NCBI GenBank assembly: GCA_027214385.1
Contig: JAPVXR010000003.1
Span: 186,001 to 250,000 of the forward strand
Reading direction: 5' to 3'
From: Cryomorphaceae bacterium 1068
Lineage (GTDB): Bacteria; Bacteroidota; Bacteroidia; Flavobacteriales_D; Cryomorphaceae
Length of the DNA: 64,000 nt
The notes under the pieces are model-generated. The model ran no database searches. It was not told the origin of the DNA and saw only the letters and a program-made list of their open reading frames with translations. The stretch's first letter is position 1, and each line of letters starts with the position of its first letter. This document shows positions 24,379-38,260 of this stretch, piece by piece. The position numbers and the translations under genes were made by a program.

Positions 24379-26448
24379 ATGAGAACATCAGTACTCGTAC
24401 TTCTCCTTATTTGCTTCGGATCGACGCTGGATGCCCAAACCAATCTTGATTCGCTCTACTCTGTTTGGCAGGATAAGAACCAAGCTGAGCCTGATCGGCT
24501 CCATGCCTTTCATGAATATATCCGAAACAAATACCTCAACTCAGATCCCGATTCGGCATTTTATTTAGCGGGTCTTCAATATGAGTTTGCCCACAGCGCA
24601 GATCTTCAAATGCAAAAAGGTGAGGCATTGCTTCTACAAGCACGTGCGCTCAACCTCAAGGGCGAGTACACCCAAGCTTCTGAATATTTCGATAGAAGCA
24701 TGGAGCTGTTTACAGAAATCGGAGCAAAAGATCAGTTGGCAAAAAGCTTTATTGATAAGGCAAGTCTCTATATCGACTTAGGGAAGTATGATTCTGCATA
24801 CGCTTATTTCGATATGTCTATAGCAACGTATCAAGAGCTGAATGATAGTTCGGGCGTGGCAACTGTCTTGCTCCGAAAAGCCTATACCGCTGAAATTTCG
24901 GCACGGTATACTGAGGCCATGGAATATGCCTTTGAAGCGTTGAGAATATCAGAAAAGCTCAAAGACTCGGTAGGAATTGCCGATGCTTATGTAAAGCTGT
25001 CCGCCATTCTGTACCAACAAAAGAACTATGAAGGCTCCATAGAATATGGGATGAAGGCCTTGGAGTTTTTAAAACAAACCAACGATCGGGAAAGTGTGGC
25101 TGATGCTTACCTCGAGATCGGATATAGCTATTTGATACTGGGCGATCTCGACACCGCACTGACGTATATGAATCGCACCCTAGATATCCGAACGGCCATC
25201 GGAAGTTCGCCATTAAGCATCGGCAGTGCCATAAATGGCAGAGGCAATGTGTACAAGCACATGGGAGACTACGACAATGCGCTGGCAGATTACATGAGAT
25301 GTCTGGAGATATCGAAAGCACAGGGCTCCGAACTCGGCATTATGGCACCGACCGCAAACATTGGCCATGTGTATATTTTGATGGAAGAATACGAAAAGTC
25401 ATTGCCCTATCTATTCACGGCCGTAGAGATGATGGAAGCCTCGGACAACAGGTTGAACATCGTTGAGAACTACATGCACATATCCAAGGCCTACGAGGAA
25501 TTGGGGCAGTTTGAGAAATCACTGAAGTGGTACCGCAAGTACAATACTACCAAGGATAGCATATTTACGACACAGAAGGATCACACACTCTCAGAACTCA
25601 GAACCCAATACGAGACCGAGAAGAAAGAAGAGCAAATCGCCAGCTTGGAGAAAAAGGCTGAACTCGAGATGCAGGCTCATCAGAGAGATCGGCTTATTAA
25701 AATTCTCTTGGTTGTGCTGGCGGTGCTGCTGGTAGCCTTTGCTTTTGGACTGTGGAATCGACTGGCGTTCATGCGAAATTCTCGTGGTATCATCCAAAAA
25801 GAGCGTGATCGAAGTGAAACCTTGCTTCTCAACATCCTCCCGAAGGAAGTGGCTGAGGAGCTCAAAGAAAAAGGGGAAGCCGAAGCACAGTTGATTGACC
25901 ACGCGACGGTGCTGTTCAGCGACTTCAAGGGCTTTACGGCCATAAGCGAAAAGCTCAGCCCGAAAGAATTGGTGAGAGATCTTAATGATTGTTTTTCGGC
26001 TTTTGATGCGATCATGGACAAGTATGGCATCGAGAAGATTAAAACCATCGGAGACTCATACATGGCTGCGGGAGGCTTGCCATTGCCCGATGCACTCCAC
26101 GCCGAAAACGTGGTGCGAGCAGCCTTTGAAATGCGCGACTTCATAAGGGCAGGAAAGGCAAAGAAGATCGAAGCCAAACAACCGTACTTTGAAATCAGAA
26201 TAGGTATTCATACAGGACCTGTGGTAGCTGGGATCGTAGGCGTTAAGAAATTCCAGTACGATATATGGGGAGATACCGTGAATACTGCCAGCCGAATGGA
26301 AAGCTCGGGCGAAGTGGGTAAAGTAAACATCAGCCAGTCAACCTATGAAATACTGAAGAATGACTCCCGATTTGAGTTTGAAAGTCGTGGTAAAATTAAG
26401 GTGAAAGGAAAGGGAGAAATCGATATGTACTTTGTCTCGAAAGTTTAA
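24379..26448 (+). CDS. TPR-sensor adenylate cyclase (class III)
   Basis: A 689-aa protein with a signal peptide (residues 1-20), a periplasmic array of tetratricopeptide repeats (about 65-400, e.g. GEYTQASEYFDRSMELFTEI and GDYDNALADYMRCLEISKAQ), a coiled-coil segment, one membrane helix (IKILLVVLAVLLVAFAFGLW) and a C-terminal cyclase domain. Metal ligands D515 (LFSDFKGFT) and D559 (IGDSYMAAGG), adenine-selecting K555 and D628 (DIWGDTVN), and the NTASRME transition-state block are all present. It should make cAMP in response to a periplasmic signal. It is complete and looks chromosomal. It is not next to a CAP12-type TIR gene, so a Pycsar pairing is unlikely. Confidence 0.9.
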   Translation: MRTSVLVLLLICFGSTLDAQTNLDSLYSVWQDKNQAEPDRLHAFHEYIRNKYLNSDPDSAFYLAGLQYEFAHSADLQMQKGEALLLQARALNLKGEYTQASEYFDRSMELFTEIGAKDQLAKSFIDKASLYIDLGKYDSAYAYFDMSIATYQELNDSSGVATVLLRKAYTAEISARYTEAMEYAFEALRISEKLKDSVGIADAYVKLSAILYQQKNYEGSIEYGMKALEFLKQTNDRESVADAYLEIGYSYLILGDLDTALTYMNRTLDIRTAIGSSPLSIGSAINGRGNVYKHMGDYDNALADYMRCLEISKAQGSELGIMAPTANIGHVYILMEEYEKSLPYLFTAVEMMEASDNRLNIVENYMHISKAYEELGQFEKSLKWYRKYNTTKDSIFTTQKDHTLSELRTQYETEKKEEQIASLEKKAELEMQAHQRDRLIKILLVVLAVLLVAFAFGLWNRLAFMRNSRGIIQKERDRSETLLLNILPKEVAEELKEKGEAEAQLIDHATVLFSDFKGFTAISEKLSPKELVRDLNDCFSAFDAIMDKYGIEKIKTIGDSYMAAGGLPLPDALHAENVVRAAFEMRDFIRAGKAKKIEAKQPYFEIRIGIHTGPVVAGIVGVKKFQYDIWGDTVNTASRMESSGEVGKVNISQSTYEILKNDSRFEFESRGKIKVKGKGEIDMYFVSKV

Positions 26449-26494: not shown

Positions 26495-26671
26495 ATGAAA
26501 ACCATGACCTGCAAACAATTAGGGGGAGCATGTAACCAAGAATTCCATGCAGAAACTTTTGACGCCATAGCAGAACAGAGTAAAAAACATGGAATGAAAA
26601 TGTTTCAAGAACAAGATGAAGCTCATAAGCTGAATAACACACACGCGAGTGCGTGTTATCCGCAGATTTAG
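26495..26671 (+). pseudogene. Truncated small Cys-containing protein (DUF1059-like), cut by the 87-bp repeat
   Basis: The frame encodes 58 residues starting MKTMTCKQLGGACNQEFHAE. The first 44 residues (TMTCKQLGGACNQEFHAETF, KHGMKMFQEQDEAH) match a small stress-type protein that I associate with the DUF1059 family. The normal continuation after DEAH should be a helix of about 25 more residues. Instead the frame enters the 87-bp repeat at position 26627 and ends in KLNNTHASACYPQI, which is repeat-encoded. The 3' part of the gene is not found beside the second repeat copy at 31,883. This is a clean mark of insertion or deletion at the repeat edge. It is too short to be flagged by a 60-codon cut-off. 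Confidence 0.75.
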
Positions 26672-26713
26672 GGAATATTAGTGCACTAGTGCTTGTTATT
26701 TGATTGTTGTGTG
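26627..26713 (+). repeat. 87-bp perfect direct repeat, left copy
   Basis: It is identical base for base to 31,883-31,969. It contains an internal hairpin (ATAACACACAC paired with GTGCGTGTTAT), then GTGCACTAGTGC, and ends in GTTGTGTG. That ending is the same as the right core of the attC-like sites at 30,651 to 37,020. The left edge interrupts a small gene. Confidence 0.95.
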
Positions 26714-26733
26714 CAATATGTACGAGCCATCCG

Positions 26734-26763
26734 TTGAAGTATATAACAAATTAGGTATTTTAG
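26734..26763 (+). promoter_or_regulatory. Probable promoter at the head of the CECPNPPGG operon
   Basis: TTG at 26734 and TATTTTAG at 26756 are exactly 19 nt apart, close to TTG-N19-TAnnTTTG. The ATG at 26767 follows three bases later. It begins 20 bases after the 87-bp repeat. Confidence 0.5.
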
Positions 26764-26766
26764 AAT

Positions 26767-27123
26767 ATGTCAAATAATGTATGTGAATGTCCTAATCCTC
26801 CTGGTGGCACAGTAATTTGTGAACCCGACCAGCTTGCAATTTGTCATGTTAAAGACGGGAAGGCTATTCAAAGATGTCTTGACCCAGTTGATTCAATGAA
26901 TCCATACGTGATTATTAATTGGACTCTCAATCGAATTTTGGATAGAGAATTCAAACCCAGAAGTAAAAGGACTATTAAGAAATACATCAAAAGACTTGAA
27001 GCTGGTAACTTGACTACTATTGGTGGAACGAAAGTCTCATTCTCTTTACCAAAAACAGTTCAAAAAGCTTTAAATCAAATAAAAAATGATCGGTCAAACC
27101 CAGATAAACCTTATCTCGAATAA
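26767..27123 (+). CDS. CECPNPPGG-motif protein, first paralogue
   Basis: I do not recognise a named family. The 118-aa protein begins with a compact Cys-rich module: C6, C8, C18, C26 and C37 in CECPNPPGG, ICEPDQLAICHVKDGKAIQR and CLDPV. This resembles a zinc-binding knuckle. The rest is a basic, helical C-terminal part (PRSKRTIKKYIKRLEAGN) and FSLPKTVQKALNQIKN. A second copy with the same cysteine spacing lies at 27,668. A membrane protein gene lies between them with a two-base gap and a four-base overlap, so the three form one operon. A structural or sensory partner of the membrane protein is a guess. Confidence 0.75.
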   Translation: MSNNVCECPNPPGGTVICEPDQLAICHVKDGKAIQRCLDPVDSMNPYVIINWTLNRILDREFKPRSKRTIKKYIKRLEAGNLTTIGGTKVSFSLPKTVQKALNQIKNDRSNPDKPYLE

Positions 27124-27125
27124 CT

Positions 27126-27671
27126 ATGACAGCAACTTTATGGATAGGACTTGGCTTCCTTATTACTCTTGTAATCTTTCTGATGTTAGCATTTTTTTTT
27201 AAGAATGAAATCAGTCGACAACAGTACGCAATACTGAAATTTCTTATTGCTTTAAGCGCTGGATTTTCTGGTGGATTTTTAGCAGGGACAGCAATATTTA
27301 GCCTTGATGGAACACTAGCGAATGGGTTCAAATTTGCAATTTCTGGAACAAGTGGAGTTGCTTTATTTTTCACTGTTTGGTTCTATTTCCCTGAATACAC
27401 ACAAACCATTAGAAATGCATTTAACTACTCGGTTGGTGAAAATCAATTATTTGGCTCAACTATCAGCACAATTGCAAAATCAGTAAATGGTTTTGCTGAA
27501 TTCACTGGATTTAGTGAAGAAGATTTACAGCTTCCCCTTGAGAGTAGGCAAGTTAATGGCAAGTCTGCACTGGAAGGCATTAAAAAACTTAAGTATCTAA
27601 ATCCATCAATCCCACCGTACTCAGTAACTCAACTAGAGGATCTTTATAAAATCGAAAAAACGGAACAATGA
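27126..27671 (+). CDS. Two-helix membrane protein between the CECPNPPGG paralogues
   Basis: A 181-aa protein. A first transmembrane helix covers residues 5-26 (GLGFLITLVIFLMLAFFF). A glycine-rich hydrophobic hairpin follows at about 38-62 and 72-92 (FLIALSAGFSGGFLAGTAIF, GTSGVALFFTVWFYF). The C-terminal 90 residues are soluble (NAFNYSVGENQLFGSTISTI, SEEDLQLPLESRQ). I recognise no family. Its stop overlaps the ATG of the second CECPNPPGG gene (ATGA). A pore- or anchor-forming partner for the Cys-rich proteins is possible but unproven. Confidence 0.65.
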   Translation: MTATLWIGLGFLITLVIFLMLAFFFKNEISRQQYAILKFLIALSAGFSGGFLAGTAIFSLDGTLANGFKFAISGTSGVALFFTVWFYFPEYTQTIRNAFNYSVGENQLFGSTISTIAKSVNGFAEFTGFSEEDLQLPLESRQVNGKSALEGIKKLKYLNPSIPPYSVTQLEDLYKIEKTEQ

Positions 27672-28033
27672 ATAACGTATGTGAATGCCCTAACCCACCT
27701 GGTGGAAAAGTCGTATGTGAACCACACCAAATGGCTGTATGTATTGTTGAAAATGGTCAACAGATTCAAAGATGTCTAGACCCAGTTACAACATACGACT
27801 CTGTTTCACTTGTAAGTTGGGCTTTGGAAGAGATTACAGGAGAGTTTAAGAAGGCACTTGAAATATCAAGTCAGGACTTACTGACTCTCGTCAAGGGAGA
27901 ATACCACACCCAAGAAAAATCTGTAAAATTTCATTTACCCGAATCTGTGAGTAGTGCTGTTTTAGAAATGATTAAGGAAAACGGAAACCTTGGCTCTGGG
28001 TTTAATCAAGGTGGAAATATACTGATAACATAA
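27668..28033 (+). CDS. CECPNPPGG-motif protein, second paralogue
   Basis: A 121-aa paralogue of the protein at 26,767. The Cys module is the same (C5, C7, C17, C25, C36; CECPNPPGG, CEPHQMAVCIVENGQQIQRC, LDPV). The C-terminal part differs in length but keeps the final FHLPESVSSAVLEMIKENG helix, the counterpart of FSLPKTVQKALNQIKN. The duplication within one operon suggests two diverged subunits or two specificities. The start ATG overlaps the stop of the membrane protein gene. No function is known to me. Confidence 0.75.
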   Translation: MNNVCECPNPPGGKVVCEPHQMAVCIVENGQQIQRCLDPVTTYDSVSLVSWALEEITGEFKKALEISSQDLLTLVKGEYHTQEKSVKFHLPESVSSAVLEMIKENGNLGSGFNQGGNILIT

Positions 28034-28177
28034 AACCCACTAATTAGGAGATAATCTCAATGAGAAATCTAACCGATAAGCAAATTCTAGTGAGATAAAT
28101 AACATTTAATTCAATTTAAAAGGGAGTGCTCGCTAAATTTATGAAGAGGTTAGAGCAATAAATAAAAAGCAAGAATT

Positions 28178-29422
28178 ATGAATAACATTTTTACTACACC
28201 TGGAAACGCTGATAATCTGAGTAAGGAACTACTTCAGAAATGGAATCAAGTAATTAAGAATAACTACGACAGCCTAATTAGAAGTTATCCATCCGAATAC
28301 TTTGAATTTGCTCCTGCCGATATTAATAATGCATCAACAGTTTCAATTAAATGGTTTGGCGACCCAGCAGAACCTGCGTTTTGTTTAAGTAAAGATATTG
28401 CTCAAAAACTTTCAGATTGGGGTATAAAAGGAAGACACAATACTCATAATGAATATTGTGAGTATTCAATAATCTACGGATTCGATTCACTCGGTAAAAA
28501 GCGTCCAAAAAGGATTCAAGTTACAACTGAACTAAGAGAATATTGGGTAACATTAGCAATGCACTCACCCAATAAATTAGCTGAAATAGCGAGCCAAGTT
28601 TTGAATCGTGAAGTTTCGTTTTTAGAACTTTACGGAATCACTGACCCAACTTCGTTAAGTTTAAGGGAACGTGAAGTTAAATTTTCAAGAATTGTAGCAG
28701 GTCATGGCAATGATAGGTCTTTAGCGGATATAGGTGTACCCAGTCAACCAGAAGGTGATATTAATCGAGAAAACGCACTATTTATGACTCATCCTATAAA
28801 TGGTCTTGATGATTTAATCTACATTGTACTTTTTGGAGCACAACCATACGCGATACAAAAAGACGGGAGTATTATTCCTGCAGACAAGGAATCAATATTC
28901 AAACAGTTCAACGTTACTCAGCTAGCTTGTCGACATGCTGACCCCGCAGCAGCAATGGGTGCACATGGTGCAGCTTTCAATGGTCAAAAGGTTGCGTTTA
29001 CTAAAAACCTAGGTATGTATATTCATTCTTTTGCAAGTAACAGATATTTGTATAATGACAATGAAATTCCGTCTGCGTGGATAAAATTTAGTAGAGGTGA
29101 AGAAGGTATGTATCAGAGGTTAGAATTTGGGCCATCTGACAATGAGGATATCTTTCTAGACGATATAATATTAGCAGAAGGTGGTAATGATGTACCTGTT
29201 ACTGGTGGATATCAGATTGTTAAAAATGTTGAAGTTGGACCTTATGTTCATATCGGAGAACCAAAACCAATGTCAGATTCAGATTACGTTTTAATTAATG
29301 AAAACCTTGATGGAATTAATTGTTCTGAAGCCAACATATGCAACCTTATGCAACGCCTGTATTCAGAGTATTCCAACTCAAAAAATAAGATAGACAATAG
29401 ATTAAATCGACAAATTGTCTAA
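28178..29422 (+). CDS. 414-aa protein of unknown family, coupled to a DyP-type peroxidase
   Basis: I do not recognise the family. The protein is soluble, with no signal peptide or membrane helix. Notable segments are IKWFGDPAEPAFCLSKDIAQ, RIQVTTELREYWVTLAMHSP, ENALFMTHPINGLDDLIYIV, CRHADPAAAMGAHGAAFNGQ and RLEFGPSDNEDIFLDDI. Several of these have paired His, Asp and Arg that could form an active site. The stop codon overlaps the ATG of the peroxidase gene as TAATG, so the two are translated together and probably work in one reaction or complex. The 144-base gap upstream contains no inverted repeat; this pair could be read from the CECPNPPGG operon or separately. Confidence 0.6.
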   Translation: MNNIFTTPGNADNLSKELLQKWNQVIKNNYDSLIRSYPSEYFEFAPADINNASTVSIKWFGDPAEPAFCLSKDIAQKLSDWGIKGRHNTHNEYCEYSIIYGFDSLGKKRPKRIQVTTELREYWVTLAMHSPNKLAEIASQVLNREVSFLELYGITDPTSLSLREREVKFSRIVAGHGNDRSLADIGVPSQPEGDINRENALFMTHPINGLDDLIYIVLFGAQPYAIQKDGSIIPADKESIFKQFNVTQLACRHADPAAAMGAHGAAFNGQKVAFTKNLGMYIHSFASNRYLYNDNEIPSAWIKFSRGEEGMYQRLEFGPSDNEDIFLDDIILAEGGNDVPVTGGYQIVKNVEVGPYVHIGEPKPMSDSDYVLINENLDGINCSEANICNLMQRLYSEYSNSKNKIDNRLNRQIV

Positions 29423-30666
29423 TGTTACAGGAAGGAATATATTATCAAAAAGGGACAACACCAGGTAAACATCTGTCCCTAATATTTCTCCGTTTAAACA
29501 AGGATAAAAGTACAGAAAATATTCGTCAAGATATAGAAGGACTTTGGAAGATTTGCCATGAATTAAAAAAAGGTCGAATTAAGGACTTACCTGGCGTAGA
29601 CTTACCAATAGAAAGCCTATCCATTTTAATCGGCTATGGTAAAAATATTTTCTCAATAGATGGTTTGAACAAAACTATCCCTTCTGATTTGAACCAATTT
29701 GGAAGTTTTCGCAAACCAAAAGCAAATGGAGGTGGTAAATTATTGATAGGGTCAGGTCTATCATATTCTAATAAAGTATACAAAAATGTTGCAACGGAAG
29801 ACATTGTCTTGCAATTTATAGGTGATACAGAGTTGTCTGTCAGCAGACCTGTAGTAGAAATTTGGAAGTTTATTTCTGATACAGATAATGATATTGAATT
29901 ATCTAAATTCTATAAAGGGTTTCAAAGAGAAGACCATCGTAGTTGGATTGATTTTCATGATGGAATCTCTAATATGAAAAGTGGAGATGAAAGATTCGAT
30001 GCTATTTCAATTAAACCTTCTACTGGCCTGGACAATTGGACAGAGCTTGGAACTTATTTAACTTTTATAAGGCTATCAGTAAATTTAAAGGAATGGAGAT
30101 ACCTGTCATTAAAAGAACAAGAAATTGCAGTTGGAAGGATGAAACTTACAGGTTGTCCAGTAGAGAAAATTAAAGATAGTGTAGCGTTCCCAAGCTTAGG
30201 GTGTCCGTTCACTGGTACAAATTCAATAACTGATAAAATTAATGGTAAGTATGTTAACAAATCCTTTTTTGAGCCACCTGTAACCGTTGATTTAGAAACA
30301 AGGTTAAGCCATGTACAAAGAGCTAATCAGCATCGTTCACCTTCATCCAGTCGCGACTCTCTCAGAGTATTCAGACAGGGGTATGAGTTTTTAGAACATA
30401 TTGATGAATATCCTGGGTTTTCGGCTGGATTGAATTTCATTTCATTTCAAGATACCCCTGAAAGAATCCAACGAATGTTGACCCAACCCACTTGGCTTGG
30501 CAATACAAATTTTGGAGGAAAAGAAGATGACGAAAACCCCAAATTAGATTCGCTTTTAGAAGTGTTAGCTTCAGGTATATATTTTGTTCCTCCTGTTAAT
30601 GAAAATGAATCATTTCCTGGAGAAATAATTTTTAAACAAATTGAAACTGCACACAACAATGTATAA
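29422..30666 (+). CDS. DyP-type peroxidase-like protein
   Basis: A 414-aa protein. It shows blocks of dye-decolorizing haem peroxidases in order: WIDFHDGISNMKSGDERFDA (D180-G-I-S, the distal Asp region), GTYLTFIRLSVNLKEWRYLS, QEIAVGRMKLTG, SHVQRANQH (proximal haem histidine H297), LRVFRQGYEFLE and GLNFISFQDTPERIQRMLTQ. The distal GFxDG motif is altered to DFHDG, so activity may differ. The family reduces peroxides with varied donors and is sometimes an encapsulin cargo; no encapsulin gene is in the window. The stop codon lies inside the attC-like element at 30,651, as is common for cassette genes. It is translationally coupled to the unknown gene upstream. Confidence 0.75.
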   Translation: MLQEGIYYQKGTTPGKHLSLIFLRLNKDKSTENIRQDIEGLWKICHELKKGRIKDLPGVDLPIESLSILIGYGKNIFSIDGLNKTIPSDLNQFGSFRKPKANGGGKLLIGSGLSYSNKVYKNVATEDIVLQFIGDTELSVSRPVVEIWKFISDTDNDIELSKFYKGFQREDHRSWIDFHDGISNMKSGDERFDAISIKPSTGLDNWTELGTYLTFIRLSVNLKEWRYLSLKEQEIAVGRMKLTGCPVEKIKDSVAFPSLGCPFTGTNSITDKINGKYVNKSFFEPPVTVDLETRLSHVQRANQHRSPSSSRDSLRVFRQGYEFLEHIDEYPGFSAGLNFISFQDTPERIQRMLTQPTWLGNTNFGGKEDDENPKLDSLLEVLASGIYFVPPVNENESFPGEIIFKQIETAHNNV

Positions 30667-30703
30667 GCGGCAATAAAACGACCGCTTATACGGAACGTTG
30701 TGG
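30651..30703 (+). repeat. attC-like inverted repeat, 53 bp
   Basis: Left core ACACAAC, spacer AAT, stem GTATAAGCGG, an 11-base loop, stem CCGCTTATAC, spacer GGAAC, right core GTTGTGG. The ten stem pairs are perfect. The spacers are 3 and 5 nt, the same asymmetry as in the sites at 32,695, 35,902 and 36,961. The upstream gene's stop codon lies within it and the next gene starts 12 bases after it. Confidence 0.7.
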
Positions 30704-30714
30704 TGCATAAAGAA

Positions 30715-31113
30715 ATGAGACTGATAATACTCTTTACACTAATTCTGCTTTGCGCTTGCTCTCCTCTGACTGAGCAAGAAAAATTGGAACGTCTTTTAGA
30801 ATCTGATCACTTGAAAATTCAGAGAAATTTCTACGGCGGTCTTGCGGGATATGGAGAAGACGTTTTTTATTTTGAACTAAGTGATAATAGAACGGAATTT
30901 TTGATTCAGCCAGATTCTACAACAGCCGCACAATCATTAGTCAGAAGTTTCATCAGGCATGCTTATAACACGAATGACACGGCTAAAATCATGTCTAAAT
31001 CTTGTCTTGGAATAGACCATGAATACATTTTGAGTACAGGTAGTGCGAGTCTGACAGTGCGGCCAGATGAAAAATGTGATTCAATTTTTGAGCTAATTTA
31101 TGGGGAAAGATAA
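30715..31113 (+). CDS. Putative lipoprotein of unknown function
   Basis: From the ATG at 30715 the protein is 132 aa with a lipoprotein signal (LIILFTLILLCAC, cysteine at the lipobox). The mature part is short, acidic and mixed (NFYGGLAGYGEDVFYFELSD, TEFLIQPDSTTAAQSLVRSF, CLGIDHEYIL). No family is recognised. It begins 12 bases after the attC-like site, as expected for the first gene of a cassette. In-frame GTG codons upstream lie inside the inverted repeat and are less likely starts. Confidence 0.6.
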   Translation: MRLIILFTLILLCACSPLTEQEKLERLLESDHLKIQRNFYGGLAGYGEDVFYFELSDNRTEFLIQPDSTTAAQSLVRSFIRHAYNTNDTAKIMSKSCLGIDHEYILSTGSASLTVRPDEKCDSIFELIYGER

Positions 31114-31212
31114 AAGATGATACCCAAACAACACTAACATACAATGAATGTGCTGATAGAAGCAATTTTGACCAAACTTGTATGGACTATTTAAAAAATT
31201 GAATTGAATAAT

Positions 31213-31458
31213 ATGGGAACTAAATTTGAAGACAAGCAAATTTCGAGTGAGGACGGTTTCTGGACCATGTTCTATTTCCTGAAAGAACACTATGATTTAT
31301 CAGGTGGTGCATTTGAATTGTCAGATATTTTAAGCGCATGCGAACCTGTCAAAAGGTTAAATCCTGCATTGGTAATACCTGCCGACAGTTCAATGGTTCA
31401 TTATTGGAACGAAGCTTTAGATAAGTACAGGAAAAATGGAAAGCCTGATTTTAAATAA
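31213..31458 (+). CDS. Small acidic protein of unknown function
   Basis: An 81-aa protein without signal or membrane segment. The sequence is EDGFWTMFYFLKEHYDLSGG, FELSDILSACEPV, then a C-terminal MVHYWNEALDKYRKNGKP. No family is recognised; size and charge would fit an immunity- or inhibitor-type protein, but that is a guess. The ATG at 31213 is preferred to the TTG three codons earlier. The 100 bases before it contain no strong inverted repeat, so it may share a cassette with the lipoprotein gene. Confidence 0.5.
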   Translation: MGTKFEDKQISSEDGFWTMFYFLKEHYDLSGGAFELSDILSACEPVKRLNPALVIPADSSMVHYWNEALDKYRKNGKPDFK

Positions 31459-31882
31459 AGAAGAAATACGACACCACAACAATACCCGCTCCGCCGAGTC
31501 TGTGACCCAGCGGTATTTATTCTAGTTCCGCAGGGATGCAGACACAGCGAAGCAGTTGACTTACCCTTTTACAAAAAGCGACCTAGCCCATTACAGAATG
31601 CAACATACTTTTATGCAACGGGCAGCCTAAGGATATACATCCATTAAGCCATGATCCTATAGCATGTACCCCGATTGATAGTGCAAGTGTCCTAAGCTGA
31701 TTTGTTGTGTGAACGTACGATCAACACTTGACTAATGAAACGAAAGGTTGGGAGAAGGACACCCAAATAGGGAAACCCGCAACCATTAGGGGGGTAAAAA
31801 CCTGAAAAAGTACAGGGTTTTTCCTGTGGGGTAGGCGGGGAAGGTTTGGTAACTTTGGGATTGAACAAGTAGGTGCCTCCGG
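31459..31882 (+). other. Non-coding stretch between the small protein gene and the right 87-bp repeat
   Basis: No convincing gene was seen. At 31474-31480 lies CCACAAC followed by AAT, like the left half of the attC-like sites, but no matching right half is near. The palindrome at 31,483 follows directly. Near 31,800 there is an inverted repeat (AAAACCTG and CAGGGTTTT). A minus-strand frame across 31,692-31,985 has proline-rich, non-protein-like composition. Confidence 0.5.
31483..31515 (+). repeat. GC-rich imperfect palindrome, related to 37,040-37,073
   Basis: It begins TACCCGCTCCGCCGAGTC, continues TGTGACCCAGCGGTA, and matches 37,040-37,073 at most positions with one indel. The two look like copies of a REP-type element, possibly remnants of a RAYT- or IS200-like family; no transposase gene is intact nearby. 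Confidence 0.6.
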
Positions 31883-31969
31883 AAGCTGAATAACACACAC
31901 GCGAGTGCGTGTTATCCGCAGATTTAGGGAATATTAGTGCACTAGTGCTTGTTATTTGATTGTTGTGTG
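31883..31969 (+). repeat. 87-bp perfect direct repeat, right copy
   Basis: It is identical to 26,627-26,713 and in the same orientation, 5,256 bases away. It ends in GTTGTGTG, then diverges (TAATTAAAAG against CAATATG). The TIR gene starts 22 bases later. Confidence 0.95.
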
Positions 31970-31991
31970 TAATTAAAAGAACCACATAGAA

Positions 31992-32684
31992 ATGACAATA
32001 GAAGAATTAAAAAAGCTCCTTTCTGAAAAAGGTTACGCTATAAACACAGAGAAAGAAATTCCATACGGGCGACAATTAAAATTGACCAACGGTGCGACCG
32101 TGACTTGTTTTGATAAAGGTAAAATTCAAGTTCAAGGTAAGGCGGCAATAAAATCGGAAATTGAATCCGTAATAGGACTATCAAATCCAAAAGCAGAAGT
32201 TAAGATTACCGCTGAACCACAAGGAAAAAAATCCAATGAGGTATTTGTAGTCTACGGACACGATAAAGAAGCGAGAGACCAATTAGAAGCAATGTTGAGA
32301 CGTTGGGGACTTGAGCCGCTAATTCTTGACCAACTACCTTCAGAAGGACAGACTATAATTGAAAAGTTAGAAAACTACACAGAACGCGGTGAATTCGGAA
32401 TAGTATTAGCAACACCAGATGATGAAGGTTTTAGAAAAGAACATCCTGACGAAAAAGCTTTCAGAGCGAGACAAAATGTAGTACTCGAAATGGGAATGCT
32501 CTTATCAAAATTAGGTAGGGACAGAGTTGCTATTCTCTTGAAAAGTCAAACCGAAATGGAAAGACCATCTGACATACAAGGATTGATTTACATTTCTTTT
32601 AAAGATAATGTTGCGGAAGCAGGACTTACTTTGGCTAAAGAAATGGCGACCAAAGGATATAAAATTGACATACAGAAAATTTAA
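31992..32684 (+). CDS. TIR-domain effector with an N-terminal TBP-like domain (CAP12-type TIR)
   Basis: A 230-aa protein. Residues 84-215 form a TIR domain of the CAP12/Pycsar-effector type (PF10137-like): VFVVYGHDKEARDQLEAMLR, LGLEP-type strand, RARQNVVLEMGMLLSKLGRD with conserved E166, and RVAILLKSQTEMERPSDIQG. Proteins of this group cleave NAD+ when triggered by phage infection. Residues 1-70 (GRQLKLTNGATVTCFDKGKI, QVQGKAAIKSEIES) resemble the TBP-like N-terminal domain of RNase HIII, a likely nucleic-acid or nucleotide-sensing part. No CD-NTase or cyclase is adjacent, so the trigger is unknown. It sits between the 87-bp repeat and an attC-like site as a one-gene cassette. Confidence 0.82.
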   Translation: MTIEELKKLLSEKGYAINTEKEIPYGRQLKLTNGATVTCFDKGKIQVQGKAAIKSEIESVIGLSNPKAEVKITAEPQGKKSNEVFVVYGHDKEARDQLEAMLRRWGLEPLILDQLPSEGQTIIEKLENYTERGEFGIVLATPDDEGFRKEHPDEKAFRARQNVVLEMGMLLSKLGRDRVAILLKSQTEMERPSDIQGLIYISFKDNVAEAGLTLAKEMATKGYKIDIQKI

Positions 32685-32694
32685 AAAAAACTAC

Positions 32695-32823
32695 ACACAA
32701 CAACGCATATAGCCTATGGCGGGTGAACGGCCACAGCAAGGTTTTCGCTCTGTTGCCAGCTTTGGTTTCGGTGCACAGGAAAGTGCTTCTAAACCGCCAC
32801 AAGCCATATGCAAACCGTTGTGC
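32695..32823 (+). repeat. attC-like inverted repeat, 129 bp
   Basis: Left core ACACAAC, spacer AAC, stem GCATATAGCCTATGGCGG, a long loop, stem CCGCCACAAGCCATATGC, spacer AAACC, right core GTTGTGC. The first stem bases pair almost fully with the last. The spacers are 3 and 5 nt, the same pattern as in the neighbouring sites. It separates the TIR gene from the GIY-YIG operon. Confidence 0.72.
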
Positions 32824-32836
32824 TTAATCTAATCAA

Positions 32837-33289
32837 GTGACCGAGATTAAAATATTTTTTGATGAAGGACAAAAATTTGAACCTCGCAACATCAAACCCT
32901 TAGTTGGGATTGCTGGCCTTTACTTCATATTCAATAATGAGATTAAGGTTCATTACCCCTTCGATAAATCAAGGTTGATATATATAGGGATGAGTGAGAA
33001 AAAGACAAATAGCATTGGTAAACGCCTACAGGGACATTTGGAAGGCACATCTGGTAATGAAGGAATTGTTAGTTATGGTAAGGTCAATAGCCTATACTTC
33101 ACTTATATCAATTTTGAGATGCTTAAAAGAATGTGGCCGTTGAGTATTGAGAACTTGGAGAGTTACTTCATCCTAGACTTTGTTAAACGTTATGGTGTAT
33201 ATCCGATTTGCAACAACAAATCTGGCCATCACATTCTACAAAGTGATTTAAACAGTGTCCTTACAGTAGATTGGAAATACTTTGAATAA
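32837..33289 (+). CDS. GIY-YIG-fold nuclease
   Basis: A 150-aa protein with GIY-YIG nuclease landmarks: G27-L-Y29-F-I (GIY strand), L47-I-Y49-I50-G51 (YIG strand), R63 in GKRLQGHL, E108 in NLESYFIL and N126-N127 in PICNNKSG. These are the five catalytic positions in the usual order. Translation starts at GTG (32837), 13 bases after the attC-like site, with no ATG available. It overlaps the next gene by one base (TAATG), and that gene overlaps the ATPase gene, so the three are a tightly coupled operon. The nuclease is the likely effector and the ATPase the sensor. Confidence 0.78.
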   Translation: MTEIKIFFDEGQKFEPRNIKPLVGIAGLYFIFNNEIKVHYPFDKSRLIYIGMSEKKTNSIGKRLQGHLEGTSGNEGIVSYGKVNSLYFTYINFEMLKRMWPLSIENLESYFILDFVKRYGVYPICNNKSGHHILQSDLNSVLTVDWKYFE

Positions 33290-33483
33290 TGAACACTCAA
33301 ATTAAAAGCGGAAAAGAAATTTTGGATGAGTTTTTCGAGGACTTAAAGGCGGACGAGGAACTCAATCAAGAAACATCTGAAACAATCATCAACTTATACG
33401 AAACTGGGAAGCTTACTGACCGTAATTTAACCAATGCTCTTGCCGAGCTAAGGGAGAAGAAAGAAAATGGTAAAACTAAATAA
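33289..33483 (+). CDS. Small acidic linker protein of the GIY-YIG/ATPase operon
   Basis: A 64-aa protein (SGKEILDEFFEDLKADEELN, ETIINLYETGKLTDRNLTNA, ALAELREKKENGKTK). It is entirely helical in appearance and strongly acidic at the start. No family is recognised. Its ATG uses the A of the upstream TAA, and its end overlaps the ATPase start by 17 bases, so translation of all three is coupled and stoichiometry may be fixed. It could be an adaptor between nuclease and ATPase, like the middle subunit of Lamassu-type systems, but it is much shorter than those. Confidence 0.7.
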   Translation: MNTQIKSGKEILDEFFEDLKADEELNQETSETIINLYETGKLTDRNLTNALAELREKKENGKTK

Positions 33484-35893
33484 CATAGGCGTTAAAGGAC
33501 TGCGTGGTGTTCGCAATGACCTTTCAATTTATTTAAACGGAAAGTCGGCCTTGCTATATGGTGATAATGGTTCTGGAAAGAGTTCTCTGTCGGACGTCCT
33601 CGATTGGTTCTTCTACGACCGTATAGATCACTTAGCGGGAGAAGAAATTGGGCGTAAGGGATACGAAGCACTGCGAAATATTTTCTTAAATGAAGAGGAA
33701 CCTGGCACACTAGAATTGAAATTTAGTAAATATCAATTAGATAGCGCAAAGACTATTGAGTTGAAGAACGGGAGCCTAAAATCCACTTTATCGAATGATT
33801 CAGATGAGTTTGCAACGTATCTCAGAAATTCCCATGAAGAAAATCTCACACTTCGATATAAGGAGTTGGTGACATTTGTACTTTCTTCAAAAACTGACAA
33901 ACTGCGCGCATTGTCAGAGATAATTGGGTATTCAAAAGTAACTGACACAAGAGATGCACTAAGAGGTGTTTACAATAGATTATCTAAGGAGATAAAAACA
34001 AAAGGGTTTGACAATTTGATAAATCATCAGCAAAGTCAAATCATCGAGCAGTTTGGACAAAATGTAACAACGGCAGAACAGTTCATCGGAGTTGTAAATG
34101 AAATAGTCGAACCTTTTAATCTTGGTATTGAAATCAAGGTATTGAAAGACATTAACGAAGTACTTAAGAAAATTAAAAAGCCAGACGATAGTAAGGTGGT
34201 TAAGCAGGAAGCCTTTCTACTAAAAATTGAAGAAAGCCTAGTGAATCTTCCTACTAATCTCGAAGAAGTAGAAACTCAGTATAATGATTACAAATCCAAG
34301 TTCGATGCAATCGTTTCTGACATCGACAAATTGCGGAAGCTAACTATTGAACAACTTCTGACTACTGGTAAGGAATTAGTATCTAAAGAGAGCTATATCG
34401 AAAACATCTGTCCGCTCTGTGAGCAGGATAAAGATAAAGAAGCTCTGCTCAATGAAATTGAAGCGAGGATAGCCGAGCTGGAAGAAATTAAAAAAGAGAC
34501 AAAGGAGCTAAATGATGCAAATACATCATTCCAACAACAGATAAGAAATACCTTAAGACCATTACAATCTTTATTGGACGACAAACTCATCGGGGAAACA
34601 GGAAATTCCGCCCTCAAATCTAACATTGAGACACTTATCAAGGCAATTAATAAGTACCAAGGGTCAGTGAAAGTCAAGGTGGGCAGTGAAAGCAAACTCG
34701 AGAGCGAAGCTGACTTGATAGTGCGAAGGAAACCTATTGACACCTTATCAAGTGATTGCAAAGCTCAGTTAGAAGAAATAAAGAAATCGAGAAAAAAAGA
34801 CCCTAAGTGGGAAGCTTATGGGAAAATTTATACCGCATCCCGTGCATTCGCTCAAATCCTTCGTTTGCGAAAAGAGAAAAATGCCTACGAAAAACAGCGT
34901 GATACCTTGGAAGTAGTTTATCGCAGATTTCTGAACAAGCAGAAGGAAGCATTGGATGCCTTTTTAGACAACTTTTCTGAAAAAATAGATGAGATATATC
35001 AATTCCTGAATCCAGGTGAAAAGGTTGAGAATATTAAGCTGATTCCCCTCGAAAAGAACAACGAGCTTTCGGGTATTACTATTCAATTTGATTTTCTCGA
35101 TAATAAAGATGTTACTCCACCCCACAAGTTTTTAAGTGAATCGCATATAAACTGCTTGGGGCTAGCATTTTTTCTTACTTCAGTAGAGGCCTTTAACAAA
35201 GAAAATAAGTTCATGATACTGGATGATGTTATTTCCAGTTTCGATGCAAATCATAGGAAAAGATTTGCGGATCTTCTCATTGAAAAGTATGGTGACTACC
35301 AAATTATTCTACTAACCCACGAAAAGACGTGGTTCGATATAGTCAAGAACCTAGTACGTAACAAGAACTGGGAAGTAAAGACAATCAAGCACAATGAGGT
35401 CAAAGGAACCTATATGGACGAATCTCCGCAGTCACTCAGGGAGAGAATAGAAAAGAAAATATCCGACCGTGATGAATACGGACTGGGAAATGATACTAGA
35501 AAATACTTAGAACATCTCCTTAAGCATATTGCTTTTAACTTAGAAGTTAAGGTATCTTACAGGTTTAATGACGTCAATGAAGACCGCATGGCGTTTGAAA
35601 TGTTAACAGAACTCACAGGGACTATCGCCAAGCGGAAATGTACCGAGTTGCAGACAGAACCAGTTATTGGTAGGTTGTTAGGCTCATTGTTCATCGGCAA
35701 TAAGGATTCACATGACAGCACCACAGACCCATCTTTTGGGGATATGAAGGCTTTTTGGCAAGATGTGCTTGACTTCGAGAAGTTGTTTAATTGTAATGTA
35801 TGTAGTTCACCTGTTTCACTTCGATATTATGATGAAGGAGCTAAACAAGTAAGTTGCAAAAAGGGTGAGCTCACTTATAATTGGAAGAAATAA
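33467..35893 (+). CDS. SMC/Rad50-like ABC ATPase with a zinc hook
   Basis: An 808-aa protein. Walker A is YGDNGSGKSS (G32-S39). A coiled-coil arm follows to about residue 310, a hook CPLC (C315, C318), and a returning coiled coil to about 520. The ABC signature region FLSESHINCLGLAFFL, Walker B FMILDDVISSFDANH and the H-loop ILLTHEKTWF complete the head by about residue 640. The last 170 residues form an extra helical domain (LGNDTRKYLEHLLKHIAFNL, FIGNKDSHDS) and a C-terminal Cys cluster (CNVCSSP, VSCKK). Such ATPases sense DNA ends or foreign DNA in RloC, Lamassu and related systems. It is the third gene of the coupled operon and is bounded downstream by an attC-like site. Confidence 0.88.
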   Translation: MVKLNNIGVKGLRGVRNDLSIYLNGKSALLYGDNGSGKSSLSDVLDWFFYDRIDHLAGEEIGRKGYEALRNIFLNEEEPGTLELKFSKYQLDSAKTIELKNGSLKSTLSNDSDEFATYLRNSHEENLTLRYKELVTFVLSSKTDKLRALSEIIGYSKVTDTRDALRGVYNRLSKEIKTKGFDNLINHQQSQIIEQFGQNVTTAEQFIGVVNEIVEPFNLGIEIKVLKDINEVLKKIKKPDDSKVVKQEAFLLKIEESLVNLPTNLEEVETQYNDYKSKFDAIVSDIDKLRKLTIEQLLTTGKELVSKESYIENICPLCEQDKDKEALLNEIEARIAELEEIKKETKELNDANTSFQQQIRNTLRPLQSLLDDKLIGETGNSALKSNIETLIKAINKYQGSVKVKVGSESKLESEADLIVRRKPIDTLSSDCKAQLEEIKKSRKKDPKWEAYGKIYTASRAFAQILRLRKEKNAYEKQRDTLEVVYRRFLNKQKEALDAFLDNFSEKIDEIYQFLNPGEKVENIKLIPLEKNNELSGITIQFDFLDNKDVTPPHKFLSESHINCLGLAFFLTSVEAFNKENKFMILDDVISSFDANHRKRFADLLIEKYGDYQIILLTHEKTWFDIVKNLVRNKNWEVKTIKHNEVKGTYMDESPQSLRERIEKKISDRDEYGLGNDTRKYLEHLLKHIAFNLEVKVSYRFNDVNEDRMAFEMLTELTGTIAKRKCTELQTEPVIGRLLGSLFIGNKDSHDSTTDPSFGDMKAFWQDVLDFEKLFNCNVCSSPVSLRYYDEGAKQVSCKKGELTYNWKK

Positions 35894-35901
35894 AAGACTA
35901 T

Positions 35902-35964
35902 GCACAACAAAACCGAAGCAATAGCGCCCTGCTTGACGCTACTGCTAATATACAACCGTTGTGG
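35902..35964 (+). repeat. attC-like inverted repeat, 63 bp
   Basis: Left core GCACAAC, spacer AAA, stem with AGCAATAGCG, loop CCCTGCTTGA, stem with CGCTACTGCT, spacer CAACC, right core GTTGTGG. The stem has one mismatch (AATAG/AGTAG) and is weaker near the cores. It separates the SMC operon from the HEPN-like gene. Confidence 0.65.
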
Positions 35965-35986
35965 GCAATTAGAAAAAATGAATTGA

Positions 35987-36952
35987 ATGAATACATATCT
36001 CTCTGACTCTGGAAAGTTTTTTAAATTGGTTTCAATCGGAATCCAAAAGAATTTGGATGATTTTCAAGTAATTCAGTTGACTTTAAATTTTGCTTTGGGT
36101 TTAGAAAGATTATTGAAGGGTATTTTATATGACATCAATCCAATTTATATATTAATTGAACCAGATTTCAAACATTCTTTGCAATGCCTTTACGAAGAAA
36201 AAATCATTGCGGAAAGTAAAACATCAAAGGAACTAGCAGCCAACCCAAATGAAGATGTAATAACGTTCCGCAATAGCCTGTTAAGAGCTCAACACATTTC
36301 AAAAGTTTGTTATGACAATAAAAATCTCCTATTCAATATTTCGAATGCCAGAGATATAATTGTGCACCACGAACTCAATCGACTAGATATTAACTCTTTG
36401 AAAGAAATTCTTCAGAGAGATTTTTATCCTTTCTTAAAGGAGATTTCAACTGAATTATCTATAAAAAAGGGACATTTCTTTGATGGTTCACACATTAAAC
36501 TTTCAAAACTATCAAGCACTTTACAAACTGATTTAGAAAAGAAATTAAAACTCATCCTTGAGGCACAACAAGAAACCTGGTTATCATTAAAAGGAAACGA
36601 TGGGTTCATATCTGACAAAGAAGAAGTTACTAAAAACATCTTGAGTACTTCATTCAAAGAAACAACAAAATGTCCTTCTTGCGAAAACAGTGCAGTTATC
36701 TATTTAAAACCTATTAAAGAATATAACCCTTTTGAGAAAGATGAGATTATAATTGGATTCGAGGTTAAAAAACTAAAATGTCAATTTTGTAAACTTGAAA
36801 TATCCGATTCTGTGATTTTAGACCATTTGGAAATAAGAGACAAAAAAATTCACAGAAAAAATAATTGTGCACGCTGTGATAAAGAATTGGAATTAGATAA
36901 CGCTAATGGAGTTTGTTCGGAATGTGATGAATACTATGGAACAGAAAATTGA
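35987..36952 (+). CDS. HEPN-like protein with C-terminal zinc ribbons
   Basis: A 321-aa protein. The first 160 residues are helical. ALGLERLLKGILY and NARDIIVHHEL with R122-x4-H127 fit the RX4-6H motif of HEPN domains, many of which are RNases in toxin and abortive-infection systems. The C-terminal part has four Cys pairs (C229-P-S-C232, C265-Q-F-C268, C294-A-R-C297, C310-S-E-C313), enough for two zinc ribbons. I recognise no named family for the whole protein. It fills the cassette between two attC-like sites alone, with its start 22 bases after one and its stop eight before the next. Toxin action is inferred from the HEPN motif only. Confidence 0.65.
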   Translation: MNTYLSDSGKFFKLVSIGIQKNLDDFQVIQLTLNFALGLERLLKGILYDINPIYILIEPDFKHSLQCLYEEKIIAESKTSKELAANPNEDVITFRNSLLRAQHISKVCYDNKNLLFNISNARDIIVHHELNRLDINSLKEILQRDFYPFLKEISTELSIKKGHFFDGSHIKLSKLSSTLQTDLEKKLKLILEAQQETWLSLKGNDGFISDKEEVTKNILSTSFKETTKCPSCENSAVIYLKPIKEYNPFEKDEIIIGFEVKKLKCQFCKLEISDSVILDHLEIRDKKIHRKNNCARCDKELELDNANGVCSECDEYYGTEN

Positions 36953-36960
36953 ATAACTAA

Positions 36961-37020
36961 GCACAACATCGCCTATACGCAATGCCCTTCGGGACACTGA
37001 GCATAGCCATGGCGTTGTAC
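36961..37020 (+). repeat. attC-like inverted repeat, 60 bp
   Basis: Left core GCACAAC, spacer ATC, stem GCCTATACGCAATGCCC, loop TTCG, stem GGGACACTGAGCATAGCC, spacer ATGGC, right core GTTGTAC. It has the same 3/5-nt spacer asymmetry as the other sites. It is the last site of the array; no further matching site was seen downstream. Confidence 0.65.
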
Positions 37021-37039
37021 TTAATTATAGGATTTGACC

Positions 37040-37073
37040 TACCCTGCTCCGCTGGGTTTGTAACCCTGCGGTA
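37040..37073 (+). repeat. GC-rich imperfect palindrome, related to 31,483-31,515
   Basis: It begins TACCCTGCTCCGCTGGG and ends TAACCCTGCGGTA. It follows the final attC-like site by 20 bases, much as the other copy follows a CACAAC half-site. It is probably a REP-type remnant. Confidence 0.55.
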
Positions 37074-37310
37074 GTCCACTACCAAAACATTCCTGTCGAG
37101 ATCCCACTTCATCCAATCGGCTTTGGTCATCCTCAAAAATAAGAAAATCCGCTGCGTAGGGTATACCACCCTGCACTAATCTACCCGCCATTATCGTGGT
37201 CACCAACTTTCTACTAGCTATTGAGGCGGCATCGGCATGCACCGAGGCATTTTCGATATCAGTTGCGGCAATTTCAGTACTTATCGTCCCGTCAGTGACA
37301 TCAATAGCCG
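37074..37310 (+). other. Non-coding stretch after the array
   Basis: I see no gene I can support. Overlapping frames on both strands exist but share the same bases, lack a plausible start context, and resemble no family. It may be decayed mobile-element sequence, given the palindrome on its left and the tandem repeat on its right. Confidence 0.35.
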
Positions 37311-37415
37311 CGATCTCGGTACCAAAAAATTAAATCTCGGTACCGAGAAACCAAATCATGGTATCAAAAAAGCAAATCTTGGTATCAAAAAAGTAAATCT
37401 TGGTACCAGAAAACA
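37311..37415 (+). repeat. Five tandem copies of a 21-bp repeat
   Basis: Units begin at 37311, 37332, 37353, 37374 and 37395. The core is AAATCTTGGTATCAAAAAAG with variants (CTCGGTACC, CATGGTATC, CTTGGTACC). The period is exactly 21, so a frame across it repeats seven residues (NLGIKKV, NLGTRKQ), but the frame's start is unconvincing. Confidence 0.8.
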
Positions 37416-37636
37416 GTTGCAGGAATCAAAAAAAATGAAGTGTGAGACAATTTTCTTTATTTTTTTAACCTTCTCGACCTACTGATTATCTGCACTTTAA
37501 AAGCTCAAGTAAACTAATTTCTGTATTTTTCTTGATTTTTTTGCAACCTTTTTTTTCGGCTTTTGGTAGAAATTATTGTCACGTGAGAAGGACATAACAT
37601 GAAAGAATTTTATAAACCCTCCAAATTAATAACGCT

Positions 37637-38260
37637 ATGAAAAGGAGACTAAAGATGGGCCTGACAGGCCTCAATTCAAGTCAACTGGTTGATAAAGCCG
37701 AGTTGATCATGGTAAACATGAATGGAAACGCGAGTTTCCCCACTCCCGAGCCCGATCTGGCCGATGTACTGGCCGCGTCGAATGTACTCAAAGAGTGGAA
37801 CGAGAAATCGGCCTTTGGCGATAGACGCGCCATCAGCCGACGCGACCAGGCAGCAGATCAGCTGCGCGAGTTGCTCAAAGAACTATCCGCTTATGTAAGC
37901 TTCACCGCCAAGGGCGATAAGGACGTTATCCTAAGCTCGGGCTTCGAAGTGCAAAAACTACCCGAACCATCCGGAAACCTTTCACAACCCATTGACCTGA
38001 TAGCCAAACGCAGCGATAAGGCAGGTGAGATCAATCTGGATTGGAAAGTAGTGCCGTATGCCAAGGCTTACCAAGTAGAATACACGAGTGATGACCCCGC
38101 CAATCCCGCAGCCGTATGGACACCGGGAGTGGTTACCTCGCAAAGTCGCGCCTTGGTTACCGATTTGAATATGGGTACTCAATACCGCTTCCGCGTAAAG
38201 GCCATAAACGGTCAAAAGCAAAGTGCCTACAGCGATGTAGCACTTATAATGGCCGCGTAG
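37637..38260 (+). CDS. Fibronectin type III domain protein of unknown function
   Basis: A 207-aa protein without signal peptide. Residues 1-95 are helical (GLTGLNSSQLVDKAELIMVN, RRDQAADQLRELLKELSAYV) and residues 115-205 form one fibronectin type III sandwich (GEINLDWKVVPYAKAYQVEY, LNMGTQYRFRVKAINGQKQS). This two-part layout recurs in Bacteroidota as short cytoplasmic or cell-surface proteins whose role is not known. Either ATG at 37637 or the one six codons later could start translation. A rho-independent terminator follows 57 bases after the stop. Base composition is that of the core genome, so the accessory region ends before this gene. Confidence 0.78.
   Translation: MKRRLKMGLTGLNSSQLVDKAELIMVNMNGNASFPTPEPDLADVLAASNVLKEWNEKSAFGDRRAISRRDQAADQLRELLKELSAYVSFTAKGDKDVILSSGFEVQKLPEPSGNLSQPIDLIAKRSDKAGEINLDWKVVPYAKAYQVEYTSDDPANPAAVWTPGVVTSQSRALVTDLNMGTQYRFRVKAINGQKQSAYSDVALIMAA

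Follow-up and report, generated by a model that had tools for sequence, protein, structure and literature searches.

The repeat pair and its array

The window, the whole 64,000-nucleotide stretch analysed here, is from Cryomorphaceae bacterium 1068 (GenBank assembly GCA_027214385.1, contig JAPVXR010000003.1, positions 186,001 to 250,000 of the forward strand). A small gene in this window is interrupted by the left copy of a perfect 87-bp direct repeat, and the two copies of the repeat, referred to here as A and F, are very probably a pair of attI-like sites at which an integron-like system inserts cassettes. Recombination at such sites is what we infer from the sequence.

A first-pass annotation, made without database searches, had reported identical copies at 26,627 and 31,883, and self-alignment bears this out. 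The segment 26627-26713 equals 31883-31969 over 87 identical bp (91 aligned columns with a single mismatch at 26714/31970), and the copies are spaced 5,256 bp apart. Both have the end GTTGTGTG in common and differ beyond it, again as first described. The whole-genome count that the annotation had proposed was run on the 4.32-Mb, 59-contig genome and returned only these two perfect copies, together with weaker family copies: the next closest, C21:40535, is about 77-78% identical to A, and several others match over a core of about 30 bases.

The left copy breaks its host gene after residue 44 and supplies the stop codon, as the annotation had it, and the gene can be assigned to DUF1059. The Pfam match covers residues 1-32 of 56, under the cut-off, and a 76-amino-acid (aa) relative at locus L091 is 75% identical to residues 1-44, with homology that stops at base 26626, the final base before the left repeat. 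For the 32 missing residues, the window and 14 loci of the same genome (200 kb in total) gave nothing below E 0.42. DUF1059 was matched in none of 40 genomes, the present one with its truncated copy included, and in 16 of 395 genomes of the phylum, again including the present one; there was therefore no intact syntenic gene or empty site to compare. Relatives with the same gene and both repeats, which the annotation had said would make the arrangement an old one, did not turn up, and the 87-mer had no match in the 59 other genomes searched.

The features around the pair are as follows (ORF, open reading frame).

24379..26448, + strand: left neighbour, TPR / adenylate-guanylate cyclase protein of 689 aa (Pfam PF00211 and TPR families)
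26495..26671, + strand: DUF1059 gene, cut after residue 44, stop from the repeat (Pfam, comparison with L091)
26624..26717, + strand: attI-like site A (repeat 26627-26713), predicted crossover after G26706 (site family, self-match)
26707..30697, + strand: cassette 1, 4.0 kb (start GTTGTGTGCAATA against the box at 30645, 11/13); ORFs of 118, 181, 121 and 414 aa (no family match); last ORF, 414 aa, with a Dyp-type peroxidase C-terminal domain
30645..30703, + strand: attC-like site B, end of cassette 1 (box-pairing scan, start/box match)
30698..31525, + strand: cassette 2, with a 137-aa ORF, lipoprotein-like by eye, and an 84-aa ORF; right end provisional
31468..31531, + strand: attC-like site D, degenerate right box (by eye)
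31526..31879, + strand: leader of platform F, non-coding, with promoter-like TAACTTTG at 31850-31857
31880..31973, + strand: attI-like site F (repeat 31883-31969), predicted crossover after G31962 (site family, self-match)
31963..32817, + strand: cassette 3, TIR protein at 31992-32684, candidate defence family PDC-S35 (PADLOC PDC-S35, E 2e-102; self-match 12/13)
32689..32823, + strand: attC-like site G (box-pairing scan, self-match)
32818..35958, + strand: cassette 4, with ORFs of 150 aa (GIY-YIG below cut-off), 64 aa and 808 aa (SMC/RecF-like, LmuB-like)
35896..35964, + strand: attC-like site H (box-pairing scan, start/box pairs)
35959..37014, + strand: cassette 5, 321-aa protein, no family match
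36955..37020, + strand: attC-like site I, closing the array on the right (box-pairing scan, start/box pairs)

The neighbouring attC-like sites that the annotation had mentioned are present, four in number, at 30651-30703, 32695-32823, 35902-35964 and 36961-37020. The attC scan, which combined outer-box pairing with folding, is too noisy alone, with many matches in coding DNA on both strands, so only these four array-fitting sites were retained from it. Within cassette 2, the box at 31468-31480 pairs with the cassette's own start over GTTGTGGTG (by eye, no control). The start of cassette 4 pairs over 11 of 13 bases with the box at 35896 and equally over 11 of 13 with that at 36955. In the leader of platform F, 31691-31711 (CCTAAGCTGATTTGTTGTGTG) may be a site remnant that lacks the hairpin.

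The array would comprise two platforms in tandem. Platform A, in the broken DUF1059 gene, would hold cassettes 1 and 2, and platform F, with its own leader, would follow and hold cassettes 3 to 5. The annotation had proposed that the 5.2 kb moved by recombination at the repeats; the part concerning the sites stands, and the part concerning a single element does not, given that the segment consists of the 4.0-kb cassette, another cassette and the leader that belongs to platform F. As A and F have the same sequence, excision of the whole 5.2 kb in between, with one site left behind, should be possible, and loss of the segment by recombination between the copies is plausible.

The identity of A and F, compared with 78% for the next copy, indicates a recent shared origin, in agreement with the annotation. 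The A/F duplication would result from insertion of a circle with a single site, and also from homologous recombination. It is possible, if somewhat short of probable, that the perfect copies arose by homologous recombination or segmental duplication between platforms, such that the integrase moves only the cassettes within; this concerns the duplication step alone and is compatible with attI-like sites. The 78% identity of C21:40535 fits such an event, as does a weak resemblance between the final dozen bases of the F leader and those before the C21 site. The family consensus starts with CCATAAGC, where the left copy has TCAT and the right copy CCGG, and the TCAT overlaps the DEAH codons of DUF1059. 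The joint of A with DUF1059 thus lies at a CAT shared by both sides. This CAT both closes the conserved DEAH and belongs to the site consensus, so that A and DUF1059 may have been joined through a short homology. On the other side, both copies are attI-like, and site-specific integration of a circle would be expected to leave a segment with equal sites at its two ends.

A family of attI-like sites and the cassettes behind them

The annotation had treated the repeats as recombination sites tied to the attC-like sites, which holds. Rather than standing alone, they are two members of a 15-site family and look like attI rather than attC. The family was found with a covariance model, R1, and by reading each match. 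Five of the 15 sites served to build R1 and so match it by construction, and 150 of 455 candidates in the genome scan were scored, so 15 may be an undercount. On other contigs the common layout is CCATAAGCTGAATAAC, a hairpin and GTTATACAATTGTT. Thirteen of the 15 sites start with CCAT, the exceptions being A (TCAT) and F (CCGG). The short form is about 50 bp, and longer forms have an extended hairpin, with about 42 bp extra in A, F and C21:40535. The site on C16 lies directly behind the gene for a 374-aa tyrosine recombinase; three ORFs and then an attC-like site come after it. Phage_integrase matches occur in five genes of the genome, and only the C16 gene is near any of the 15 sites. Two assignments were tried and rejected: C3:67495 as a site, given that it has the same sort of hairpin without the GTT tail, and the 87 bp as an attC, given that a CACAAC-type left box is missing.

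Two sites, on C21 and C29 (L044 and L045), are within 260 bp of contig ends and have 200-bp leaders that are 95% identical. Their position shows that the assembly breaks at this site family, which would lend something to the idea that the repeat pair in the window is a mis-join. Such an artefact is extremely unlikely: the flanks of the two copies differ, and each right flank fits the cassette pairing rule described below.

A promoter-like box precedes many of the sites. The motif TANNYTTG, which is the Bacteroidetes -7 motif, occurs within 160 bp upstream of 10 of the 15, compared with 0.08 expected per site from the window. It has fixed places in two leader types, at -62 to -65 (5 sites) and at -41 or -42 (3 sites), and is at -29 in front of site F. 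There is none within 160 bp upstream of site A.

The pairing rule follows from the proposed mode of insertion. If a cassette enters as a circle at G|TT, the bases to the right of the G are part of the cassette and have to pair with the box at its far end, and not with the DNA now found beyond that box. The 13 bases from GTT were sought in reverse complement where the first cassette ends, and shuffled starts served as control. At the first eight sites, 10 to 12 of the 13 bases recur in this way. For A, GTTGTGTGCAATA matches GTTGTGTGCAGTT at attC-like site B, 3,939 bases downstream, and for F, GTTGTGTGTAATT matches GTTGTGTGTAGTT at attC-like site G, 727 bases downstream. Altogether 12 of the 15 sites are matched or bettered by at most 20 of 300 shuffled starts (A 16, F 2, C16 0, C7 18). 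The best match of C21:40535 is 6.3 kb away; its match at the first cassette is 11/13, reached by 20 of 300 shuffles over the whole stretch and by 15 of 300 within 4.5 kb, and it is this match that enters the base-by-base comparison below. When the starts of the first eight sites were placed on foreign arrays, most matched 8 to 10 bases and some 11. Within 26501-37700 there are six exact ten-base start/box pairs (100 shuffles gave a mean of 1.6 and a maximum of 5), only three of them on attC-like sites.

The same recurrence is found in relatives. From 105 loci, 25 were picked by eye and the 19 with at least 700 bases downstream were tested; 10 of these reach at least 11/13, as opposed to 10 of 342 mismatched pairs, even with L102 (start at the wrong GTT) and L051 (too little downstream DNA) counted among the 19. 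Recurrence of the start in the end box is what would be expected if the cassette had once been a circle joined at G|TT.

The start and box also disagree in a regular fashion. Of 27 pairs, 24 have an A at base 11 of the start opposite a G at that position of the box, while bases 4 to 6 agree in all pairs and base 12 in 26; bases 1-3 agree by construction. The 27 comprise the 15 sites of this genome, the 10 relatives that pass 11/13 and 2 of 3 sites of genome G009, with pairs from G002 outside the set. They were chosen for overall match, a selection that disfavours a mismatch, and the mismatch at base 11 is thus taken as a real feature of the folded site.

Several results weigh against the attI-like interpretation. 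R1 scores A at 34 and F at 33 bits, compared with 55 to 76 for the five building sites, and its match at A, 26623-26678, is confined to the left hairpin. Folding of site A is unexceptional (z -0.8 and -1.4), and the five-site alignment has no covariation. Self-match is not significant at C13:8317 (100/300), C29 (65/300) or C13:14235 (287/300), and in the crossed control C29 and C13:8317 did better on a foreign array (11) than on their own (10) while C7 tied (11). The start of cassette 5 does not pair with its own end box past GTTGTG, so its self-match fails. In the assembled genomes compared, no empty site, circle or recombination event was seen. In relatives, the self-match is missing at three of the six G002 sites, at the integrase-side site of G009 (66/200) and at the single G010 site, and G001, of the same genus, has a recombinase 36% identical to the one on C16 and no R1 match.

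The missing covariation, the palindromic and dispersed nature of the repeats and the tailless hairpin at C3:67495 would all suit a family of REP-like or terminator-like hairpins that takes no part in recombination. Against such a family stand the position of these sites behind the recombinase gene (13 of the 14 closest loci) and the pairing of starts with boxes at a fixed mismatch; it is considered very unlikely.

The recombinase and its relatives

In the proposed mechanism, the 374-aa enzyme would recombine the folded single strand of circular cassettes, at their attC-like sites, with attI-like sites, the crossover falling between G and TT. Cassettes would stack behind whichever platform they entered, and one integrase seems to serve many dispersed platforms.

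The enzyme has Phage_integrase and SAM-like domains. It scores 226 bits with XerA_Arch (cut-off 220), 184.5 bits with the integron integrase profile TIGR02249 (below its cut-off of 265) and 184 bits with the XerC and XerD profiles (cut-offs 335 and 330). Where TIGR02249 has 60 positions (180 to 239), the enzyme has about 18 residues. We take positions 180-239 to be the stretch of the IntI additional domain, the I2 helix region. Since the test for the IntI domain failed, the system is set as an integron variant and not as a classical member. A structure model (mean pLDDT 81, pTM 0.53) was compared by Foldseek and returned XerA, IntI4 and other recombinases, to which little weight is given.

One could imagine a classical integron whose normal IntI is encoded in DNA missing from the assembly, given the integron layout and a draft of 59 contigs. 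It is most unlikely: completeness is given as 100, no gene in the genome matches the integron integrase profile above its cut-off, and ten aligned relatives of the recombinase also are without the insert.

Beside the integrase is a divergent partner gene for a protein of about 117 aa (L043:5516-5869, minus strand), with zinc-finger-like cysteines by eye. Homologues of the partner are present in 13 of the 14 closest loci, that of this genome included, and number 20 over all 106 loci. The gap between partner and integrase contains inverted repeats such as AACGTTTATAAACGTT.

Homologues of the recombinase at E 1e-40 or better occur in 40 of 60 genomes, the present one included, and at least 80 loci were listed. 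The closest 14, with near end-to-end match and at least 46% identity, are the C16 locus, L052-L058 and L097-L102, and include loci of Winogradskyella ursingii and Seonamhaeicola aphaedonensis. A hairpin with GTT behind it starts within 84 bases of the recombinase stop in all of them but L098 (13 of 14). Eleven of these 13 are long enough for a shuffling test, in which at most 2 of 20 shuffles were as good. More distant loci, L130-L176, have some hairpin plus GTT in 12 of 47.

Run on 12 genomes, the present one included, R1 found a match in five. G002, of the same family, has six matches, one of them behind a C-terminal integrase remnant, and two of the six self-match at 4/300 or better with a third at 32/300. 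In G009, a single-contig genome from another family, both extra sites self-match (8/200 and 1/200) with the A to G mismatch. The TANNYTTG box is absent from the six G002 sites and the G010 site. At L215 (G002:C8), only integrase residues 260-374 were found beside the site within 10.5 kb, such that this platform may have lost its enzyme.

Relation to known systems and cassette contents

The system is like a classical integron in several respects: an integrase followed by a fixed insertion site, foldable cassette ends, a presumed G/TT crossover and, as a possible counterpart of the cassette promoter Pc before attI, a promoter-like box in front of part of the platforms. An attI-like site lies behind the integrase stop at C16 and in 13 of the 14 closest loci, a likeness of position with activity putative, and by the self-match the cassettes look like former circles joined at G|TT, ending in an attC with paired outer boxes (12 of 15 sites here, 10 of 19 in relatives). 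In contrast to a classical integron, the integrase is without the IntI-specific insert and does not reach the integron integrase cut-off, the attI-like site takes the form of a hairpin, the genome has many platforms without an integrase, and the ten-base end boxes are cassette-specific with a fixed mismatch. The core differs in part as well. The classical integron core is RYYYAAC / GTTRRRY, to which GTTGGGC at C16 conforms and GTTGTGT at A and F does not.

The arrays away from the integrase resemble CALINs, clusters of attC sites without integrase, as presented in PMC9024848; here, by contrast, an attI-like site opens each array, in part of them accompanied by a promoter-like box. A unit between two equal attI sites recalls the class 1 arrangement attI1-aadB-attI1, for which PMC12901181 reports that units with equal sites at either end are excised at a frequency above 97%. 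That arrangement differs by its class 1 integrase and single resistance cassette. For the catalytic part, the best sequence matches are XerA-type tyrosine recombinases (NF040815; structures 5hxy and 4a8e), although the enzyme here has about 100 extra N-terminal residues, a divergent partner gene and an adjoining hairpin site. Nor does it qualify for the XerC/XerD system for dimer resolution, given that it is under both cut-offs and that XerD- and XerC-like proteins, the second below the XerC cut-off, are encoded separately.

A search of titles and abstract openings, with bioRxiv and most subscription journals outside it, found no description of the present system. Bacteroidota are listed among phyla with integrons in PMC8618304 and PMC9668308. 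According to PMC2426708, intI genes were selected there by the additional domain, with the Bacteroidetes/Chlorobi group among the holders. The IntegronFinder 2 paper (PMC9024848) names only a Salinibacter with a complete integron in Bacteroidetes, so that the present system may have escaped searches that depend on IntI. On balance, the Bacteroidota probably hold a separate class of integron, with a XerA-like integrase without I2, a divergent zinc-finger-like partner, a hairpin attI, folded cassette ends in which base 11 is a fixed mismatch, and a single integrase for many dispersed platforms, such that cassette capture would be genome-wide rather than at a single locus.

Acquisition of the I2 helix is described in PMC7790495 as the innovation that enabled integron integrases to recombine single-stranded attC. 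Folded, attC-like cassette ends in a system without I2 make that claim directly testable. If many attI-like platforms do operate under one integrase, this would alter thinking on cassette expression and array size.

Rfam had no match in 20000-42000. Beside several arrays are proteins of about 206 aa that are alike by eye (window 37640-38260, L043:3785-4405, L044 and L047), of which the window protein had no NCBIfam match. Two small cysteine-containing proteins of cassette 1, of 118 and 121 aa (26767-27123 and 27668-28033), are related to one another and match no family; their genes have a 117-bp DNA repeat at 75%. Some of the cassette genes resemble phage-defence genes.

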